A stretch of 64,000 bases of DNA from contig NZ_JALCYY010000016.1 of the NCBI RefSeq assembly GCF_022690685.1, forward strand, positions 1-64,000. Reading direction: 5' to 3'. The DNA is from Anaeromyxobacter terrae. GTDB taxonomy: Bacteria > Myxococcota > Myxococcia > Myxococcales > Anaeromyxobacteraceae. The notes below the pieces were generated by a model. That model had not been told where the DNA came from and did not search any database. It was given only the letters and a program-made list of their open reading frames with translations. Made by a program: the position numbers and the translations under genes. Of the stretch, positions 14,299 to 22,993 are shown piece after piece. The stretch's first letter is position 1. Each line of letters begins with the position of its first letter.

Positions 14299-14624
14299 GC
14301 CCGCGCCTCGCCGTCCAGTCGCGGGGAACACGCCGAAAGCTCCCAGGGGGCGTGGGGAGCGCGCCCGGGCGGGCGCCTCGACGCCCGCCGGAGGCTCCAC
14401 GCTCACGTTGCGGGGGTCACCGAACGCTGACGCCCATCAAGGCGGGCAACGTGTCGCAGTATTTGCGCAGCAGGATCTGCGCGTTTCGGTGCGGCGGCTA
14501 TCACCCCGAATTCAGGGCGTTATAATCGAGAGGCGATAGCCCGAAAGGGTGCTCTACGGGCCTCTACTCGGAGGGCCGGAGGTCCTGTATTCTTGCGCAC
14601 GATCAACCCATAGGGGACGTGCAA
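14299..14624. other. Intergenic region upstream of the cbb3 operon
   Basis: A hairpin GGCGGGCG/CGCCCGCC (14368-14375/14382-14389) without T-run may mark the end of the upstream transcript. GCGCAG-N6-CTGCGC (14465-14482) is a dyad that could bind a regulator. TATAAT at 14521-14526 is a perfect -10 hexamer but has no good -35 partner at 17 bases. An FNR-like dyad lies at 14593-14606. Together these make 14460-14610 the likely control region of the oxidase operon. Confidence 0.5.
14593..14606 (+). promoter_or_regulatory. FNR/CRP-like dyad before ccoN
   Basis: TTGCG-CACG-ATCAA matches the FNR consensus TTGAT-N4-ATCAA at 8 of 10 specified bases with exact spacing. It ends 18 bases before the ccoN ATG. 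cbb3 operons are commonly controlled by FNR-family regulators. Lying downstream of the TATAAT at 14521 it would suggest repression from that promoter, or activation of an unseen one. Confidence 0.4.
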
Positions 14625-16058
14625 ATGAACGAGTATCGCTACGACCACCGGACGGTCCAGGGGTTCATCCTCTCGGCCATCTTCTGGGGGGTCGTCGGCA
14701 TCGTCATCGGGCTGCTCATCTCGGTTCAGATGTGGCTGCCCGCGGCGAACTTCCCGCCGTACCTCACCTTCGGGCGCCTCCGGCCCGTGCACACGAACGG
14801 CCTCGCCTTCGGGCTCGGCGTCGGCGCGATCTTCGGGCTGAGCTACTGGATCGTGATGCGGCTCTGCAAGCGGCCGCTCCTGTTCCCGAGGCTCGCCCGC
14901 GTCCAGCTCTGGCTCTTCAACGCCGGCATCGCGCTCGCCGCGATCTCCCTCATGGCCGGTCACACGCAGTCGCTCGAGTACGCCGAGCTCGAGTGGCCGC
15001 TCGACGTCGCGATCGTCGTCCTGTGGGTGATGTTCGCGGTGAACGTCTTCGGGACGGTGCTGAAGCGGCGCGAGGAGCAGATGTACGTGTCGCTCTGGTA
15101 CGTCATCGCGACCGTCATCGCCGTCGCCGTCCTCTACCTCGTGAACAACCTCGCCCTGCCGGTGAGCCTCACGAAGAGCTACCCGGTCTTCGCGGGCGTG
15201 AACTCCGCGAACGTGCAGTGGTGGTACGGGCACAACGCGGTCGGGTTCGTGTTCACGACCCCGATCCTGGCGATGTTCTACTACTTCCTCCCGAAGGCGA
15301 CCGGGCTGCCGATCTGGAGCCACCGCCTCTCGATCGTGGCGTTCTGGTCGCTCGTGTTCGCGTACCTCTGGACCGGCGCGCACCACCTCGTCTACACGCC
15401 GCTGCCGGACTGGATCCAGACGCTCGCCATCGTCTTCACCCTGTTCCTCATCGCGCCGAGCTGGGGCTCGGTCGTGAACGGCTACTACACCGTGGGTCAG
15501 GACTGGTCGAAGATGCGGTCGAACTACCTGACCAAGTTCTTCATCCTCGGCATCACCTTCTACGGCCTGCAGACGGTGCAGGGCCCGACCCAGGCGCTCC
15601 GCGTCGTCTCGCAGCTCATCCACTTCACCGACTGGGTCCCCGGCCACGTGCACATGGGCACGATGGGCTGGGTGACGATGGTGATCACGGCGTCGGTCTA
15701 CTACGTCATCCCGAAGATCTACGGGACCGAGATCCACTCGGTGAAGCTCGCGAACGTCCACTTCTGGCTGGTCCTCGTCGGCCAGCTCCTGTTCTCGATC
15801 ACGATGTGGATCACCGGCATCCGGCAGGGCTGGATGTGGAAGGCGACGGACGCGCAGGGGAAGCTCGTCTATCGCAACTTCGTGGACACCGTCGCGGGCA
15901 ACTACCCGTACTGGCAGACGCGCACGCTCGCCGGGATCGTCTTCACCGTGGGCATGCTGTTCTTCGTCTACAACGTCCTCATGACCATCCGTAAAGGCAG
16001 GGCGCTCGAGCGGCAGGCCGCGCCCGCGGCGCCGGCGGCCAGCGTCACGGCGGCGTAG
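14625..16058 (+). CDS. ccoN: cbb3 cytochrome c oxidase subunit I
   Basis: A 477-residue, ~12-helix inner-membrane subunit that reduces O2 to water at the haem b3/CuB centre. Ligands visible by alignment to the family: H56 (HTNG) and H343 for low-spin haem b, H341 for haem b3, H203 and H253/H254 (GAHH) for CuB, and Y247, six before H253, as the cross-linked Tyr of cbb3 enzymes. The ATG at 14625 was preferred over the in-frame GTG at 14619 because AGGGGA (14612-14617) is correctly placed only for the former. It is the first gene of a long operon and the likely target of oxygen control. Confidence 0.97.
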   Translation: MNEYRYDHRTVQGFILSAIFWGVVGIVIGLLISVQMWLPAANFPPYLTFGRLRPVHTNGLAFGLGVGAIFGLSYWIVMRLCKRPLLFPRLARVQLWLFNAGIALAAISLMAGHTQSLEYAELEWPLDVAIVVLWVMFAVNVFGTVLKRREEQMYVSLWYVIATVIAVAVLYLVNNLALPVSLTKSYPVFAGVNSANVQWWYGHNAVGFVFTTPILAMFYYFLPKATGLPIWSHRLSIVAFWSLVFAYLWTGAHHLVYTPLPDWIQTLAIVFTLFLIAPSWGSVVNGYYTVGQDWSKMRSNYLTKFFILGITFYGLQTVQGPTQALRVVSQLIHFTDWVPGHVHMGTMGWVTMVITASVYYVIPKIYGTEIHSVKLANVHFWLVLVGQLLFSITMWITGIRQGWMWKATDAQGKLVYRNFVDTVAGNYPYWQTRTLAGIVFTVGMLFFVYNVLMTIRKGRALERQAAPAAPAASVTAA

Positions 16059-16072
16059 GAGCGGAGACGACC

Positions 16073-17104
16073 ATGGCCGGAAAGATCTACTCGAAGCCGA
16101 TCGCCTTCTCGATCGCCGCCACCCTCGCCGTGCTCGCCGGCTCGATCGCGATGATGGCGTACCCGATGCTCCGCGCGGAGATGCACCCGAAGGTCGAGGG
16201 GCTCGCGCCGCTCACGGCGCTCGAGCTCGCGGGCCGCGCCATCTACCAGCGCGAGGGCTGCGTGAACTGCCACACGCAGACCGTCCGCCCGCTCCAGAGC
16301 GAGGTGGTGCGCTACAAGGGCAACCGCGCCGCGGAGCCGTCGGGGCGCTACTCGCTCGCCGGCGAGTTCGCCTACGACCACCCGTTCCTGTGGGGGTCGA
16401 AGCGCACCGGCCCGGACCTCGCGTTCGAGGGCTGGCTGAAGAGCGCCGCCTGGCACCACGCGCACTTCGAGGATCCGCAGGCGGTCGTGCCGCGGTCGAA
16501 CATGCCAGCGTACGCCTTCCTGAAGGCGGCGGCGGTGGACGGGGACGACATCGGCGCCCACATGCGGACGCTCCGGCGTCTCGGGGTGCCGTACACCGAC
16601 GCGGACCTCGCCGGCGCGGCCGCTGCGCTCCAGGGCAAGACCGAGATGGACGCGATCGTCGCGTACATGCTGTCGCTCGGGAAGGCGGTCGACCGCGGCG
16701 GCAAGGGCGGGCTCGAGCTCGACCTCGAGGAGAAGAACCCGCTCGCCGCCGACACCGCCGCGATCGCGAAGGGGCGCCAGCTCTTCGACGCCCAGGGGTG
16801 CGGCGCGTGCCACGGCGACGAGGCGCACGGCCAGGAGGGCGTCGCGCCGAGCCTCGTGGACGACGAGTTCCTGGGAGAGAAGGGCGATCTGCCGGACGCC
16901 GCGTACTTCGGGATGATCAAGGGCGGCAGCGACGTGAAGAAGCAGCTCGGCCGGCCCGGCCTGGCCGACGGGGGCATGCAGCCGTTCGGCAGCGAGCTCT
17001 CGGACGAGGACATCTGGTCGATCGTCGCGTGGCTCCGCAACCAGAAGGGCCACGAGGCGGCCGAGCCGCCGCACGAGGAAGCCGCCGAGCACGGGAATCG
17101 CTAG
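16073..17104 (+). CDS. ccoO: cbb3 oxidase subunit II fused to a second cytochrome c domain
   Basis: 343 residues, against ~200-240 for usual CcoO. One N-terminal membrane anchor (~10-32) is followed by the CcoO cytochrome c domain (C63-x-x-C66-H67, likely Met ligand in NMPAY). After a Gly/Lys/Glu linker (~208-222) comes a second cytochrome c domain (C243-x-x-C246-H247, likely Met ligand in GGMQPFG). The second domain resembles one of the two that CcoP normally carries. As the next gene encodes a haem-less CcoP, electron entry appears to have been moved onto CcoO. The enzyme as encoded would have two c-type haems instead of three. Confidence 0.95.
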   Translation: MAGKIYSKPIAFSIAATLAVLAGSIAMMAYPMLRAEMHPKVEGLAPLTALELAGRAIYQREGCVNCHTQTVRPLQSEVVRYKGNRAAEPSGRYSLAGEFAYDHPFLWGSKRTGPDLAFEGWLKSAAWHHAHFEDPQAVVPRSNMPAYAFLKAAAVDGDDIGAHMRTLRRLGVPYTDADLAGAAAALQGKTEMDAIVAYMLSLGKAVDRGGKGGLELDLEEKNPLAADTAAIAKGRQLFDAQGCGACHGDEAHGQEGVAPSLVDDEFLGEKGDLPDAAYFGMIKGGSDVKKQLGRPGLADGGMQPFGSELSDEDIWSIVAWLRNQKGHEAAEPPHEEAAEHGNR

Positions 17105-17115
17105 GGAGACGCGCC

Positions 17116-17424
17116 ATGGCCGAACAGCAGCAGCTCGATCCACAGCTCGACGACCTCTCGAAGCTCGAGTCTCCGAAGGAGACCGCGAACGAGCTCCCCG
17201 TCGGCTGGCTCATCCTGTTCTGGGGGCTCATCGTCTGGGGCGTCTGGTACGCGTGGGCGTTCACCCCCGGGCTCGGTGGCTGGTCGCAGACGCAGGACCT
17301 CGAGGGCGGCGGGGCGTCGATGGGCACGAACGTGCTCGCCACCCTCGCCTTCACGGTGATCCCCGCCACCGCGGCGATCCTCCTCATCGCCGCGCAGCGC
17401 AGGAAGGGGAAGAAGCAGGCATGA
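17116..17424 (+). CDS. ccoP: Haem-less CcoP N-terminal anchor protein
   Basis: A 102-residue protein. LPVGWLILFWGLIVWGVWYA followed by PGLGGWSQ is the characteristic N-terminal helix and loop of CcoP (FixP N-domain). A second helix (~75-95) follows, and the protein ends in a basic tail with no CxxCH at all. Normal CcoP is ~300 residues with two haem c domains. The missing function is probably supplied by the second cytochrome domain on the neighbouring CcoO. Its stop overlaps the next ATG (ATGA at 17421-17424). Confidence 0.88.
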   Translation: MAEQQQLDPQLDDLSKLESPKETANELPVGWLILFWGLIVWGVWYAWAFTPGLGGWSQTQDLEGGGASMGTNVLATLAFTVIPATAAILLIAAQRRKGKKQA

Positions 17425-17567
17425 GCCCCGAGACCGCCTACTTCGTCTTCGGCCTCACGCTCTGCGCCGCGCTCGCGGGGATCGCGCTCTTCTACTACTC
17501 GCGCAAGCGCAAGCACACGGTGGAGCAGGCGAAGTACCGGATGCTGGAGGATGACGACGAGCGGTAG
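17421..17567 (+). CDS. ccoQ: CcoQ-position small membrane protein with CcoS-like tail
   Basis: 48 residues: one hydrophobic helix (residues ~5-25), a basic RKRKH stop-transfer, and a C-terminal acidic tail KYRMLEDDDE. By position and size it is CcoQ, the non-essential cbb3 subunit. The tail, however, is nearly identical to KYRMLDDDE in the CcoS protein at 22805, where it corresponds to a family-typical motif. It may therefore be a second CcoS-like protein. Start overlaps the ccoP stop; its 3' end overlaps ccoG by 17 bases. Confidence 0.75.
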   Translation: MSPETAYFVFGLTLCAALAGIALFYYSRKRKHTVEQAKYRMLEDDDER

Positions 17568-18777
17568 CTTCCAGCGCTGGCGCCGGCTCGCAGGGGCAGC
17601 CCAGGGTCTCCTCTGGCTCGGGCTGCCCTTCGTGTCCGTCGGAGGCGAGAGCGCGCTGCGCCTCGACGTGCCGGCCGGGCGGCTGCACGCGTTCGGCGCG
17701 TCGTTCGCGATCGACGAGGCGTTCGTGGTGCTCGCCGCGACGCTCCTCGTCACGGCCGCGTTCCTGCTCGTGACGCTCGTCCTCGGGCGCGTGTGGTGCG
17801 GCTGGTCCTGCCCGCAGACGCTCCTCGGGGATCTCACCCGCCTCGTCGAGCCCGGCCGGGGGAGGATCCCGCGGCGCTGGCGGCGGCCGGCGGGCCTCGC
17901 GCTCGTCGCGCTCGTGTCCGCCCTCGTCGCGGCGAACCTCCTCTGGTACTTCGTGCCGCCCTGGGAGTTCTTCCGGCGGCTCGGGGCGGGGACGCTCGGG
18001 CCGGTGCTCGGCGGGGCGTGGCTCGCGATGGGGGCCCTGCTGTTCGCGGACCTCGCCCTCGTGCGCCAGACCTTCTGCGCCACGGTCTGCCCGTACGCGA
18101 AGCTGCAGGGCGTCCTGTTCGACCGGCACACGCTCGTCGTGGCGTACGACCGGCGCCGCGCGCGGGACTGCGTCGACTGCGGGGCGTGCGTGCGGGTCTG
18201 CCCGACCGGCATCGACATCCGCGACGGCCTGCAGATGGAGTGCATCGCCTGCGCGGCGTGCGTGGACGCGTGCGCCCCCATCATGGCGAAGCTCCGCCGC
18301 CCGCCGGACCTGGTCGGCTACTTCCTCGGCGAGCCCGGCACCCCGCGCAGGCTCGCGCGCCCCGGCGTCCTCGCGCTGGCAGGCGCGACCGCCGCCGCGC
18401 TCGCGCTCCTCGTCTCGGTCGTCGCGGGCCGGGCGCTCGTCGACATGAACGCGCTCGCCGAGGCGGCGTTCACTCCGCGCCGCGCCGCCGACGGGCAGGT
18501 CGTGAACGCCTTCAGCGTCGCGCTCGAGAACCACGGCCGCGCGCCCGTGACCGTCCGCCTCGCGCTCCGCGCCGGCGGCGCCGACGTCACCGTCCGGCCG
18601 GACGTCGTGGAGCTCGGCCCGGGCGCGCGGCGCCAGGTCCGGCTCGTCGCCGCCGCGCGCGGGCTCGACCGCGCGGGGCGGGTGACGGCCGAGCTCGTCG
18701 GCGAGGTGCGCCGCGGCGGCGCGGTGCTCGAGCGCCGAAGCCAGGAGGTCTCCATCGTGGTCCCGGAGGTCAGGTGA
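17551..18777 (+). CDS. ccoG: CcoG polyferredoxin, cbb3 assembly
   Basis: A 408-residue membrane protein. It has the early WCGWSCPQT motif (~82-90), several helices up to ~185, and a cytoplasmic double 4Fe-4S ferredoxin region (CVDCGACVRVCP and CIACAACVDAC, ~205-250). A C-terminal helix and an Ig-like domain (~325-408) follow. CcoG (RdxA/FixG) is known as a cupric reductase needed for copper delivery to the cbb3 CuB site. It follows ccoQ by overlap and precedes ccoH by overlap, consistent with one operon. Confidence 0.93.
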   Translation: MTTSGSFQRWRRLAGAAQGLLWLGLPFVSVGGESALRLDVPAGRLHAFGASFAIDEAFVVLAATLLVTAAFLLVTLVLGRVWCGWSCPQTLLGDLTRLVEPGRGRIPRRWRRPAGLALVALVSALVAANLLWYFVPPWEFFRRLGAGTLGPVLGGAWLAMGALLFADLALVRQTFCATVCPYAKLQGVLFDRHTLVVAYDRRRARDCVDCGACVRVCPTGIDIRDGLQMECIACAACVDACAPIMAKLRRPPDLVGYFLGEPGTPRRLARPGVLALAGATAAALALLVSVVAGRALVDMNALAEAAFTPRRAADGQVVNAFSVALENHGRAPVTVRLALRAGGADVTVRPDVVELGPGARRQVRLVAAARGLDRAGRVTAELVGEVRRGGAVLERRSQEVSIVVPEVR

Positions 18778-19625
18778 CGCATCAGGCAACGAAGCTCGCG
18801 TTCGCGGCGGCGGTGGTCGCCGGGATCGGCGCCGTCGTCGGGACGGTGTGGATCGGCTCGAACGTGAAGGAGGAGACGATCGTCGCCGATCCCTACGAGG
18901 AAGGGCTCCGCTACGACGCCGAGCGCCACGCGCGCGCCGCGCTCGGCTGGGACGTGGCCCTCCCCGCGCCGCCGGCGTCGCCTGGCGAGCTCACGCTCCC
19001 GTTCGCGGTGGCGGACGGCCAGGGCAGGCCCGTCACCGGGGCCGTGATCGCGGTGAGCGTGGCGCGGCTCGACACGAGCCGCGGCGTGGCGACGGTGGCG
19101 GCGCGGCCGGACGGGGCGGGGCGCTACGCGGCGGAGGTGGACCTCCCCGCCGCCGGCCCGTGGCTGCTCCGCTTCGACGTGCGGCGCGGCGACGATCGGG
19201 TGCGGATCGAGAAGGTCGTCCACGTCGGGACGCCGGCGGCCGGCCGGCGCTCCGCCGCGGGAGACGTCGCGGCCCCCTGCGATCTGGGCCAGGGTCCCTG
19301 CACGCGCCCGCTCGACGGCGGCGGCGAGGTGACGCTCGAGCTCGGCCCGCGCCCGCTCCGCACGATGCGGACGCTCGCGGTCGCCGCCGAGGTGCGCGGC
19401 GCGCCGCTCGCCGGCACGACCGTGGCGGTCTCCTTCGCGATGAAGGGGATGCAGATGGGCGAGAACACGAGCGCGCTCGCGGCGGCGGGGGAGGGACGCC
19501 ACGCGGGGAAGGCGGTGCTCGTGCGCTGCCCGAGCGGGCGGAAGGACTGGACGGCGGACGTGACGGTGGCGTCGCCCGGCGCGGCGCCGCGCAGCGCGCG
19601 CTTCGAGCTCACGGTGGCCGAGTGA
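18774..19625 (+). CDS. ccoH: CcoH/FixH-like assembly protein, enlarged
   Basis: 283 residues with a GTG start overlapping the ccoG stop; GGAGG lies five bases upstream. It has one N-terminal membrane helix (~9-27), then a FixH-type periplasmic domain (~30-150) containing PYEEGLRYD, the usual hallmark. A second beta-rich domain (~185-283) contains a Met-rich stretch MKGMQMGENT and resembles YtkA/FixH folds. Usual CcoH is ~160 residues, so this seems to be a tandem fusion. The methionines may bind copper (inference). It would act in cbb3 oxidase assembly at the periplasmic face. Confidence 0.83.
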   Translation: MTHQATKLAFAAAVVAGIGAVVGTVWIGSNVKEETIVADPYEEGLRYDAERHARAALGWDVALPAPPASPGELTLPFAVADGQGRPVTGAVIAVSVARLDTSRGVATVAARPDGAGRYAAEVDLPAAGPWLLRFDVRRGDDRVRIEKVVHVGTPAAGRRSAAGDVAAPCDLGQGPCTRPLDGGGEVTLELGPRPLRTMRTLAVAAEVRGAPLAGTTVAVSFAMKGMQMGENTSALAAAGEGRHAGKAVLVRCPSGRKDWTADVTVASPGAAPRSARFELTVAE

Positions 19626-20284
19626 CCGACGCGGTCGCGATGGCGTTCGTGACGGGCCTCCTCGGCGGGTTCGGCCACTGCATCGGCATGTGCGGGCCGC
19701 TCGTCGGCTCTTTCGCGCTCGCGAGCGGTGCGCTCGGCCCGCGCCGCTCGCTCGCGGGGCAGCTCGCCTACCACGCCGGCCGCGTCACCACCTACGCGAC
19801 GCTCGGCGCGGCGATGGGGCTCACCGGCTCGTTCGTGAACGTGGCGGGCCGGCTCGCCGGGCTGCAGGACGTCGTCGCGGTCGCCGCCGGCGTGCTCATG
19901 ATCCTGCTCGGCCTCGGCGCGGCGGGCGTCTCCGGCGCGCTGAAGCGGCTCGAGGCGCGCGCTTCGGCCCGCGTCGTGCGCCTCGTGCGCGGGCTCCTCT
20001 CCGGCGGCGGTCCCGGGCGGCTCTACCCGACGGGCCTCGCGCTCGGGCTCCTCCCCTGCGGCCTCTCGTGGACGATGTTCCTCGGCGCGGCGGCCACCGG
20101 CAGCCTGCCCGAGGGACTCCTCCTCGCGCTCGCGTTCGGGCTCGGCACCGTCCCGGCCCTCCTCCTCGCCGGCGCCCTCGGGGCGCTCCTCGGCGCGCGC
20201 GCGCGCGGCGTCCTCTACCGGGCGGGCGGGATCCTCGTCGCCGTCCTCGGCGGCGTGTTCGTCGCCCGGGGGCTCCGCCTGTGA
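19622..20284 (+). CDS. DsbD/SafE-like membrane protein of the cbb3 operon
   Basis: A 220-residue protein with about six membrane helices. GHCIGMCGP near residue 20 and LPCGLSW near residue 145 are the two conserved cysteine-containing motifs of the DsbD-like "sulfite exporter TauE/SafE" family regularly encoded next to ccoI and ccoS. It likely moves electrons or copper for oxidase maturation. The GTG start overlaps the ccoH stop (GTGA) and its own stop overlaps the ccoI start. Confidence 0.87.
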   Translation: MTDAVAMAFVTGLLGGFGHCIGMCGPLVGSFALASGALGPRRSLAGQLAYHAGRVTTYATLGAAMGLTGSFVNVAGRLAGLQDVVAVAAGVLMILLGLGAAGVSGALKRLEARASARVVRLVRGLLSGGGPGRLYPTGLALGLLPCGLSWTMFLGAAATGSLPEGLLLALAFGLGTVPALLLAGALGALLGARARGVLYRAGGILVAVLGGVFVARGLRL

Positions 20285-22797
20285 CGGCGACGGCTCCCCG
20301 CGAGCGGGACGCCACGATGCCCGCCTGCGACCACTGCCTCCTCGCGTTCCCCGCACGAGAGGCGGTCCGGGCCGAGATCGCCGGGGAGGCGCACGTGTTC
20401 TGCTGCGTCGGCTGCCGCGGCGTCTTCGAGCTCGTGCACGCCGAGGGGCTCGGCGCCTACTACGACACGCGCCGCTGGGACGGGCCCGGCGCGCCGGTGA
20501 GGCCGGACGGGCTCGAGGCCGACCTGCCCGCGTTCCGCGAGGCCGTGCGCCACGGCGAGGCGGGCGACGAGATCGAGGTCTACGTCGACGGCATCCGCTG
20601 CGCGTCGTGCGTCTGGCTGAACGAGCGGCTCCTCTCGCGAACCCCGGGCGTCACCTTCGCCCGCGTGAACTACGCGACGCACCGCGCGCGGGTGCGCTGG
20701 GATCCGGCGCGCGCCGGGCTCGAGACCGTGCTCGCGCGGATCCGCGCCGCGGGCTACGTCCCGAAGCCGTGGTCCGACACCGAGCAGGCGGCGGCGCGGC
20801 GAGCGGAGGCGCGGGACCTGCTCGTCCGCCTCGGCACCGCCGGGTTCCTCGCCTCGCAGCTCATGATCTACCAGGCAGCGCTCTACGCCGGGTACTTCCA
20901 GGGGATCGACGCGGGGACGCGCCGGCTCATGGAGTGGATCTCGCTCGGGCTCACGCTGCCCGTGTTCTTCTACGCGGGCGCGCCGTTCCTCCGCGCGACC
21001 GCGAGCGGCCTCAGGCACCTGCGCTTCAACATGGACTCGCTCGTCGTGTTCGGGTCCGGCGCGGCGCTCGTCTACTCCGTCTACGAGATGCTCCGTGGCG
21101 GCGAGGTCTACTTCGACACCGCCGCCATGATCCCGACGCTCGTCCTCGTCGGCCGGTTCGTCGAGGCGAGCGCCAAGGGCCGGGCCTCCGAGGCGGTGGC
21201 GCGGCTCGCGCGCCTCGCCCCCCGCGAGGCGCGCCGGCTCGAGCGCGGCGCGGACGGGCGGGAGACGCGGCGCAGCGTGCCGGTCGCGGAGATCCGCCCG
21301 GGCGATCGCGTCGCGGTGGTGCCCGGCGAGCGGATCCCGCTCGACGGCACGGTCCTGGACGGCGCGTCGGAGGTGGACGAGTCGCTCGTCACGGGAGAGT
21401 CGCGGCCGGTCGCGAAGGCGCCGGGCGCGGCGGTGATCGGCGGGACCGTGAACGGGACGGGCGCGCTCGTCGTGGAGGTCGCGCGCGTCGGGAAGGACAC
21501 CGTGCTCGCCGGGATCGTCCGGGCCGTCGAGGAGGCGCAGGGCGCGAAGCCGCGCATCCAGGCGGTCGCGGACCGGGTCGTCGGCGTGTTCGTGCCGGCG
21601 ATGCTCGTCCTCGCGGCCGGGACGCTCCTCTTCTGGCTCGCGCGCGGCGCCCCGCTCGATCGGGCGCTCATGACCGGCATCTCGGTGGTGGTGATCGCGT
21701 GCCCGTGCGCGCTCGGGCTCGCGACGCCCATCGCCGTGATCGTCTCGACCGGTCTCGCGACGCAGCGCGGGCTCCTCGTGAAGGGCGGGGACGTGGTCGA
21801 GCGCGCCGGGCGCGCGACGGACGTGCTGCTCGACAAGACGGGCACCGTCACGCGCGGCAGGCCGGTCGTGCGCGAGGTGGTGTCGTTCGATCCGGCCGTC
21901 GCGCCGGACGACGCGCTCTCGCTGGCGGCGGCGGTGGAGTCGCGCAGCGAGCATCACGTCGGTCGGGCGATCGTCGAGGCGGCGCGGGCGCTGCCCGAGG
22001 CGGCGGCGGTCGAGGTGGAGGGGTTCCGGGCGGTGCCGGGGAGGGGAGTGGTGGCGCGGGTGCGGGGGATGGGCGGGGGGCCGACCCCGACGTCGACCTC
22101 GACCGACTCCGTCCCCATCCTCATCGGCAACCGCGCTCTCCTCGCTGACCACGGCGTCCCGCTCCCGTCCGACACCGACGCCCGCGCCCGCGCGCTCGAG
22201 GCGCGTGGCGAGACGGTGGCATTCCTCGCGGTGAATGGCGCGCTCGCCGCGCTCTTCTCGATCGCCGACGTGGTGCGCGACGAGGCGCCGGAGGCGATCG
22301 CGCGCCTCCGCGCGCTCGGCCTCCGCGTCGCCATCGTGAGCGGCGACACGCAGGTCACGACCGGCGCCGTCGCCGCCGCGCTCGGGGTGGAGGCGGTGGC
22401 CGAGGCGAGCCCGGTGGAGAAGCGCGCCGTGGTCGCGCGCCGCCAGGCGGAGGGCCGGCGCGTGCTCTTCGCGGGTGACGGCATCAACGACGCCCCCGCG
22501 CTCACGCAGGCCGATGTCGGGGCGGCGATGGGGCGAGGTACGGACGTGACGATGGAGAGCGCGGACGCGGTGCTCGTGCGCGACGACCTCCGGCTCCTCG
22601 CGGACCTCGTCCGGCTGTCGCGCCGGACCTACGCCGTCATCCGCCAGAACGTGTTCTGGGCCTTCTTCTACAACGCGGTCGCGATCCCGCTCGCGATGGC
22701 GGGCCTGCTCCATCCCATCGTCGCCGCCGGCGCGATGGCTGCGAGCTCGCTCTTCGTCGTCCTGAACTCGCTGCGCCTGCGCGGCGCGCTCGGCTGA
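20281..22797 (+). CDS. ccoI: CcoI copper-transporting P1B-type ATPase
   Basis: An 838-residue copper pump for cbb3 oxidase assembly. In order: an N-terminal Cys-rich metal-binding domain (CDHC at ~18-21, CCVGC at ~40-45), an HMA domain with CASC (~107-110), eight membrane helices, the intramembrane CPC (~474), the phosphorylation loop DKTGT (D518) and the hinge GDGIND (~733). GTG start overlaps the previous stop. A low-complexity insert PTPTSTSTDS at ~600-610 interrupts the nucleotide-binding domain and is coded by a degenerate GACCCC/GACCTC hexamer run. Confidence 0.95.
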   Translation: MTATAPRERDATMPACDHCLLAFPAREAVRAEIAGEAHVFCCVGCRGVFELVHAEGLGAYYDTRRWDGPGAPVRPDGLEADLPAFREAVRHGEAGDEIEVYVDGIRCASCVWLNERLLSRTPGVTFARVNYATHRARVRWDPARAGLETVLARIRAAGYVPKPWSDTEQAAARRAEARDLLVRLGTAGFLASQLMIYQAALYAGYFQGIDAGTRRLMEWISLGLTLPVFFYAGAPFLRATASGLRHLRFNMDSLVVFGSGAALVYSVYEMLRGGEVYFDTAAMIPTLVLVGRFVEASAKGRASEAVARLARLAPREARRLERGADGRETRRSVPVAEIRPGDRVAVVPGERIPLDGTVLDGASEVDESLVTGESRPVAKAPGAAVIGGTVNGTGALVVEVARVGKDTVLAGIVRAVEEAQGAKPRIQAVADRVVGVFVPAMLVLAAGTLLFWLARGAPLDRALMTGISVVVIACPCALGLATPIAVIVSTGLATQRGLLVKGGDVVERAGRATDVLLDKTGTVTRGRPVVREVVSFDPAVAPDDALSLAAAVESRSEHHVGRAIVEAARALPEAAAVEVEGFRAVPGRGVVARVRGMGGGPTPTSTSTDSVPILIGNRALLADHGVPLPSDTDARARALEARGETVAFLAVNGALAALFSIADVVRDEAPEAIARLRALGLRVAIVSGDTQVTTGAVAAALGVEAVAEASPVEKRAVVARRQAEGRRVLFAGDGINDAPALTQADVGAAMGRGTDVTMESADAVLVRDDLRLLADLVRLSRRTYAVIRQNVFWAFFYNAVAIPLAMAGLLHPIVAAGAMAASSLFVVLNSLRLRGALG
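22081..22110. repeat. Degenerate hexamer repeat inside ccoI
   Basis: Units of the form CGACCCC, CGACGTC, CGACCTC and CGACCGAC in a row code PTPTSTSTDS within the ATP-binding domain, between the strand ending in VVARV and the strand PILIGNR. The unit type matches 141-163 and 3543-3690. Confidence 0.6.
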
Positions 22798-22804
22798 GGG
22801 CCAC

Positions 22805-22993
22805 ATGTCCATCGGCTTCCTCATCGTCCTGTCGCTCGCGCTCGGCGTCGTCGCCTGGCTCTTCTTCCTGTGGACGGTGAAGAGCGGACAGTACGACGAT
22901 CCGGAAGGGCCGAAGTACCGGATGCTCGACGACGACGAGGGGGAGGCGAAGCCGCGGGGTGAGCGCGGGGGACCGCGCGGGGAGCGGCGATAG
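22805..22993 (+). CDS. ccoS: CcoS, cbb3 oxidase maturation protein
   Basis: A 62-residue protein with one N-terminal membrane helix (~4-26), then SGQYDDPEGPKYRMLDDDE, the CcoS family signature (SGQ.DD.EGP..R.L.DDE), and a basic Gly/Arg tail. It is needed for cofactor insertion into cbb3 oxidases in studied species. It starts eight bases after ccoI and is the last gene of the operon. The tail of the convergent endonuclease-like gene overlaps it on the other strand. Confidence 0.92.
   Translation: MSIGFLIVLSLALGVVAWLFFLWTVKSGQYDDPEGPKYRMLDDDEGEAKPRGERGGPRGERR

Follow-up and report, generated by a model that had tools for sequence, protein, structure and literature searches.

A cbb3 oxidase operon of Anaeromyxobacter terrae with two cytochrome c domains on CcoO and a CcoP-like anchor lacking a haem site

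In this study, we found a complete cbb3 oxidase operon of a soil bacterium whose CcoO bears both c-type cytochrome domains, the CcoP-like protein being a bare membrane anchor. We consider it likely, at about 75% with the inferred electron route and history included, that this operon belongs to a distinct and ancient lineage. The cbb3 oxidase is a high-affinity oxygen-respiring enzyme, and its electron-entry cytochromes are normally on CcoP. On sequence comparison, the design is real, ancient and common to several bacterial phyla. The operon lies in a window of 64,000 nucleotides, meaning the whole stretch of DNA that was analysed, on a 97-kb contig of a 5.65-Mb genome. The features were as follows.

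14625..16058, forward strand: ccoN, catalytic subunit of the cbb3 oxidase, 477 aa from ATG (PF00115, 358.9 bits)
16073..17104, forward strand: ccoO fused to a cytochrome c domain, 343 aa (PF02433 and PF00034; NF011054)
17116..17424, forward strand: haem-less CcoP remnant, 102 aa (PF14715, 30.7 bits, cut-off 24.9)
17317..17424, forward strand: C-terminal part of the anchor ORF, a free-standing ORF of about 30 aa elsewhere (pattern survey of loci)
17421..17567, forward strand: CcoQ-like small subunit, 48 aa, one TM segment, C-terminal KYRMLEDDDE (PF05545; position kept)
17551..18777, forward strand: ccoG, assembly/accessory ferredoxin-like membrane protein (TIGR02745, PF13746, PF11614)
18774..19625, forward strand: putative ccoH-like assembly protein, about 283 aa (ORF and position only)
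19622..20284, forward strand: putative sulfite-exporter/urease-accessory-like (TauE-like) membrane protein of cco clusters (ORF, sequence)
20317..22797, forward strand: putative ccoI-like P-type copper ATPase, start approximate (ORF and sequence)
22805..22993, forward strand: ccoS (PF03597 FixS, 70.1 bits)

The ccoN gene has a GTG at 14619 as an alternative to the ATG. The best NCBIfam models for CcoN were of the ccoN type (TIGR00780, 533 bits; PRK14485, 560 bits), both scores being under the models' own cut-offs. CcoG scored 254.9 bits against TIGR02745, under its cut-off of 316.7. The CcoQ-like protein matched FixQ (PF05545) at 6.1e-5 and 23.3 bits, below the cut-off of 29, and is CcoQ-like in size, position and topology. 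The genome also has other haem-copper subunits I; the strongest, at 466.8 bits, is on contig C83, and two score lower. With its CcoN-type subunit I and membrane-anchored FixO-type CcoO, the operon is assigned by sequence to the cbb3-type (C-type) haem-copper oxidases. By sequence, it shares CcoN, FixO, FixP_N and ccoG/S with the classical CcoNOQP enzymes of P. stutzeri (3MK7), P. aeruginosa (8SMR) and R. capsulatus (6XKW), and it has a candidate FixQ-like protein. However, the classical CcoO has one haem domain and the classical CcoP has two, whereas here CcoO has two and CcoP none, so that neither the mono-haem CcoO nor the haem-bearing CcoP of that type is present.

The two-domain CcoO and the CcoP-like anchor

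Profile searches matched residues 6-187 of CcoO to FixO (PF02433, 212.8 bits) and residues 231-324 to Cytochrom_C (PF00034, 55 bits) and Cytochrome_CBB3 (PF13442, 50 bits). There are two CxxCH motifs, beginning at residues 63 and 243, as the original prediction of two such domains had claimed. A TM helix (9-33) is followed by the FixO haem domain (C63xxCH, Met144), a linker at about 205-226 and a second class-I cytochrome c domain at 227-330 (C243xxCH, Met302). Both CxxCH sites and the presumed distal axial residues, Met144 and Met302, were invariant in 37 relatives. CcoO also matched NF011054/PRK14486 over profile positions 2-294 of 294 with 478.7 bits, above the cut-off of 447, and the fused CcoO thus belongs to an already named protein family. 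NF011054 is an NCBIfam equivalog named "subunit II/cytochrome c". The name appears without analysis in work on Occallatibacter (PMC12935467) and in a CDD hit list (PMC8756737). The family is restricted to CcoO, and its entry is silent on the haem-less anchor, the micro-ORF described below and how the second domain arose. In the literature searched, which left the cbb3-cluster survey of Ducluzeau et al. 2008 outside it, we found no account of the layout, of a haem-less CcoP or of the domain origin. The finding is therefore partly known: the fused CcoO has a database name, and the whole design is apparently undescribed in that literature.

An AlphaFold model of CcoO (pLDDT 76, 37 sequences) contained the helix at 9-33, the FixO part and the second domain. 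The second domain was mostly at pLDDT 80-97, and the region of the first haem was of low confidence. In a structure search, CcoO chains were the top PDB matches of the FixO part, with Z scores of 14-16. Residues 220-327 aligned with class-I cytochromes c, and the second domain matched the P. aeruginosa CcoP chain with a Z score of 10.9 over 99 residues (rmsd 2.6 Å), in a tie with cytochromes c552 and cL. When the sequence profile of this domain was searched against solved structures, the best matches were CcoP chains, and one of the nine profile rows was the CcoP of Caldimicrobium. By profile, the second domain is CcoP-like, although it belongs to an old family that is specific to CcoO.

The second domain could also be a fused mobile carrier, like a tethered cytochrome c6 or c552, with the true CcoP haems on an unlinked protein. 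The linker before the domain, about 20 residues modelled at low confidence and weak near 209-212, agrees with this reading. So do the structural matches to c552, cL and c6, which are as good as those to CcoP, and the tri- and tetra-haem CcoO proteins of other lineages. However, the top sequence-profile matches are CcoP chains and the genome has no unlinked full-length CcoP, and we regard a fused carrier as unlikely.

The ORF at 17116-17424 matched FixP_N at residues 21-55 with 30.7 bits against a cut-off of 24.9, and no CxxCH was present in its 102 aa. The predicted CcoP-like membrane anchor without a haem site was thus borne out. A second TM segment is predicted after the FixP_N membrane helix. 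The start of the CcoQ-like gene at 17421 overlaps the stop of the anchor ORF by ATGA, which leaves no room for a hidden haem domain between the two. The anchor sequence is conserved in the family alignment, and the ORF lies directly after CcoO in all Anaeromyxobacteraceae loci listed.

In Nitrospirota, the anchor is a single-helix protein of 61-65 aa, which is followed by a separate ORF of about 30 aa before ccoQ in about 20 loci. The sequence of this small ORF in Nitrospirota is MDISIIATIGFT..., and examples among loci L086-L120 are L097:6858-6950 and L087:6215-6307. The single-TM pattern MDIS[IV]xATI[AG]FT... was found in Nitrospirota, one Spirochaetota MAG and Caldimicrobium. In the window, the same segment forms the C-terminal half of the 102-aa anchor ORF, at about 17317-17424, and it is a separate ORF again in L080, L082 and L083. 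In one sister genus, the two-helix anchor is split into overlapping ORFs of 65 and 39 aa (L029:2513-2826, L023, L082). The small ORF may be an unannotated micro-subunit of the cbb3 oxidase; CcoM of P. stutzeri has a comparable size of 36 aa (PMC10433244). The small ORF had no sequence match to any solved chain in the PDB, and the anchor and micro-ORF together gave nothing useful there beyond weak CcoP matches.

Distribution and copy number

As proposed with the original prediction, relatives were surveyed, and the layout was found in 20 of 24 Anaeromyxobacteraceae genomes and also in Nitrospirota, Deferribacterota and others. The fused CcoO was in one piece in 19 of the family genomes and split over two contig ends in one (G013); FixO was absent from the remaining four. 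Outside the family, FixP_N was surveyed in 20 genomes reached through named loci. Of the 18 with a fused CcoO, 17 had the anchor layout, with a single FixP_N per genome and open frames of 62-159 aa around it; the eighteenth, a Rokuibacteriota MAG (G213), gave no FixP_N match. The two Caldimicrobium genomes had FixP_N in a frame of 181-189 aa with a haem domain. Fused CcoO occurred in about 25 of 245 Nitrospirota genomes, with mono-haem CcoO in others. The fused loci were from Anaeromyxobacteraceae (L072-L085), Nitrospirota (mostly L086-L111, plus L115, L120 and L122), Deferribacterota (L116, L117, L124 and L140) and one Spirochaetota MAG (L112). Two loci, L121 and L105, were considered as exceptions to the layout and rejected, as both stop at contig edges.

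Thermodesulfobacteriota showed every combination. The classical di-haem CcoP was found in L179, L180 and L183, and a mono-haem CcoO with a mono-haem CcoP in L181, L182 and L184. A di-haem CcoO was accompanied by a mono-haem CcoP in L187, L189, L190, L191, L193 and L185, and by an anchor-sized open frame in L188 and L192. CcoO with three CxxCH sites was seen in Rokuibacteriota (L113:794-3268) and with four in Nitrospirota (L114:307-1716), and these proteins appear to be the product of further serial addition of cytochrome domains. One Nitrospirota locus (L220:1465-2289) combines a mono-haem CcoO with a haem-less anchor and apparently lacks any second c-haem, although the fused CcoO domain is present in L104, its nearest relative.

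The other Myxococcota examined had a ccoNO fusion with a mono-haem CcoP. In M. xanthus, the CcoP of a ccoNO-fusion operon is a mono-haem protein of 176 aa (PMC2129111). These operons therefore also have two c-haems, the same total as the window operon in the same phylum, but their second haem is on CcoP, their CcoN is fused to CcoO, and their CcoN and FixO belong to a different deep clade. The clear departure from classical CcoNOQP that had been claimed thus holds for the placement of the domains, but is smaller than claimed in the number of haems.

We investigated whether a full-length ccoP elsewhere in the genome, or a sequencing error, could account for the layout, the two findings named beforehand as refuting it. 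FixP_N was present once, in the anchor ORF of the cco operon. A full FixO was also present once, and the only other match was a fragment of 28.6 bits, below the cut-off. The CcoP model TIGR00782 gave no match in the genome near its 180-bit cut-off, the best being a lone small cytochrome of 48.9 bits. Across the 99.98%-complete genome, we found no CcoP-type gene outside the cco operon. The genome is a draft in 142 contigs, and a frameshift, an assembly error or a pseudogene might be suspected of splitting a normal ccoP. However, several phyla have the same layout with intact frames, in dozens of independent genomes, and a sequencing error cannot cause this; moreover, the anchor ORF is conserved in sequence and ATGA-coupled to the next gene. 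We give an artefact almost no credence; sequencing error and pseudogene formation were excluded as sources of the layout by this conservation. Annotation that seeks ccoP will score such operons as incomplete, though they are conserved over several phyla.

Origin of the second cytochrome domain

A tree of FixO (84 rows, 214 columns) separated the classical operons from the fused-CcoO lineage as two deep clades with support of 99 each. The first to branch in the fused-CcoO clade were Thermodesulfobacteriota that bear haem on CcoP as well as on CcoO, and Caldimicrobium was nested beside a di-haem CcoO (support 92). In the CcoN tree, the window CcoN clustered with the CcoN of the fused-CcoO clade (100), its closest relative being that of Anaeromyxobacter soli (99% identity). 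Anaeromyxobacteraceae were far from other Myxococcota in this tree, and Caldimicrobium grouped with L100 (99), inside the di-haem CcoO group. Since the FixO, CcoN and domain trees are unrooted (midpoint), the order of gain on CcoO and then loss on CcoP is one of parsimony, not proof.

The phylogeny of the second domain against CcoP domains, suggested earlier as a check, placed CcoO second domains and classical CcoP domains on two sides of a deep branch, although trees of so short a domain (about 100 columns) are weak and do not fix the direction of the change by themselves. Support for the branch was SH-aLRT 99 in a large quick tree and 93/77 in a smaller balanced tree. The large tree was poorly searched, with AU tests giving equal or better constrained trees, and the smaller one was therefore used. 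The CcoO side also included the CcoP domains of Caldimicrobium and of four Nitrospirota with one haem on each subunit. The CcoP domains of di-haem-CcoO lineages were on the classical side, except that of L185. Other cytochromes of the genome, used as an outgroup, gave long branches only. An NP[L/F/Y/I/V/T] linker preceded the second domain in 53 of 57 CcoO proteins and both Caldimicrobium CcoP domains. It was absent from all 24 CcoP domains of proteobacteria and present in 3 of the 32 others.

Grouping the Anaeromyxobacteraceae CcoO domain with the CcoP of other Myxococcota was rejected by the AU test (p=0.005), and the domain is thus not derived from the CcoP of its own phylum. Grouping the second domain of the window family with all classical CcoP domains was not rejected (p=0.19), nor was the corresponding grouping for the CcoP domain of Caldimicrobium (p=0.27). 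The former value is compatible with an early CcoP domain having been copied onto CcoO, as may have happened.

The original prediction was that the cytochrome domain had moved from CcoP to CcoO. In such a direct transfer, the CcoP haem domain itself would have passed to the end of CcoO, and only the anchor would have stayed in place. The domain is indeed CcoP-like by profile, that part of the prediction being upheld, a transfer would leave just such a haem-less anchor, and the p value of 0.19 is in keeping with it. However, a simple move fits poorly with the deep branch and the linker, which mark the CcoO domains as a family of their own, with the rejected grouping within Myxococcota, with the lineages in which a haem-bearing CcoP accompanies the CcoO domain, and with the reverse arrangement in Caldimicrobium. 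We regard a direct transfer as improbable.

As the CcoO domain occurs beside a haem-bearing CcoP in Thermodesulfobacteriota, the best history is a gain or copy onto CcoO followed by loss of the CcoP haem. CcoO would have gained, or received a copy of, a CcoP-like cytochrome domain a single time, at the base of the lineage, and the CcoP haem domain, kept in some Thermodesulfobacteriota, would have been lost later. Anaeromyxobacteraceae would then hold the operon of this lineage in place of the ccoNO-fusion type of the other Myxococcota examined.

In Caldimicrobium (L118, L119), CcoO and CcoP have one haem each, and the haem domain of CcoP carries the linker typical of CcoO. By CcoN and FixO, Caldimicrobium falls within the clade of the window operon, but its second haem domain is on the anchor protein, whereas that of the window operon is on CcoO. 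We considered Caldimicrobium as the un-rearranged ancestor and rejected this, given that CcoN and FixO both place it deep inside the di-haem CcoO clade. It probably represents a reverse relocation, of a CcoO-type domain onto the CcoP anchor. A broader reading, which we put forward tentatively and at somewhat less than even odds, is that of a modular entry arm. The CcoP-like domain would have been copied onto CcoO, CcoP would be an anchor with, or fused to, the subunit of about 30 aa, and in Caldimicrobium the domain would be back on the anchor. If so, one haem could be served from either of two subunits. Either way, these loci point to the exchange of domains among the subunits of a respiratory enzyme.

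Electron entry and the anchor

In the classical cbb3 oxidase, electrons pass from the donor to cp2, cp1, co, b and b3 (PMC7876108). The architecture of the window operon agrees with the earlier proposal of two c haems in the complex and both entry domains on one polypeptide, and from it we infer that electrons would enter through CcoO alone. A soluble or complex-bound cytochrome would donate to the second, C-terminal haem of CcoO in place of the CcoP haems. From there, the electron would pass along the same polypeptide to the FixO haem and enter CcoN, first at haem b and then at the b3-CuB site. Packing or assembly of the complex may depend on the helix of the haem-less anchor, which would explain why this protein is retained. 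Such operons would provide natural cbb3 oxidases with entry on one chain and the CcoP anchor apart from the haems, and this separation makes the structural and redox roles of CcoP testable apart.

The CcoQ-like protein (17421-17567) and CcoS (22805-22993) carry near-identical motifs, AKYRMLEDDDE and PKYRMLDDDE, a likeness that suggests a common origin or a common partner.
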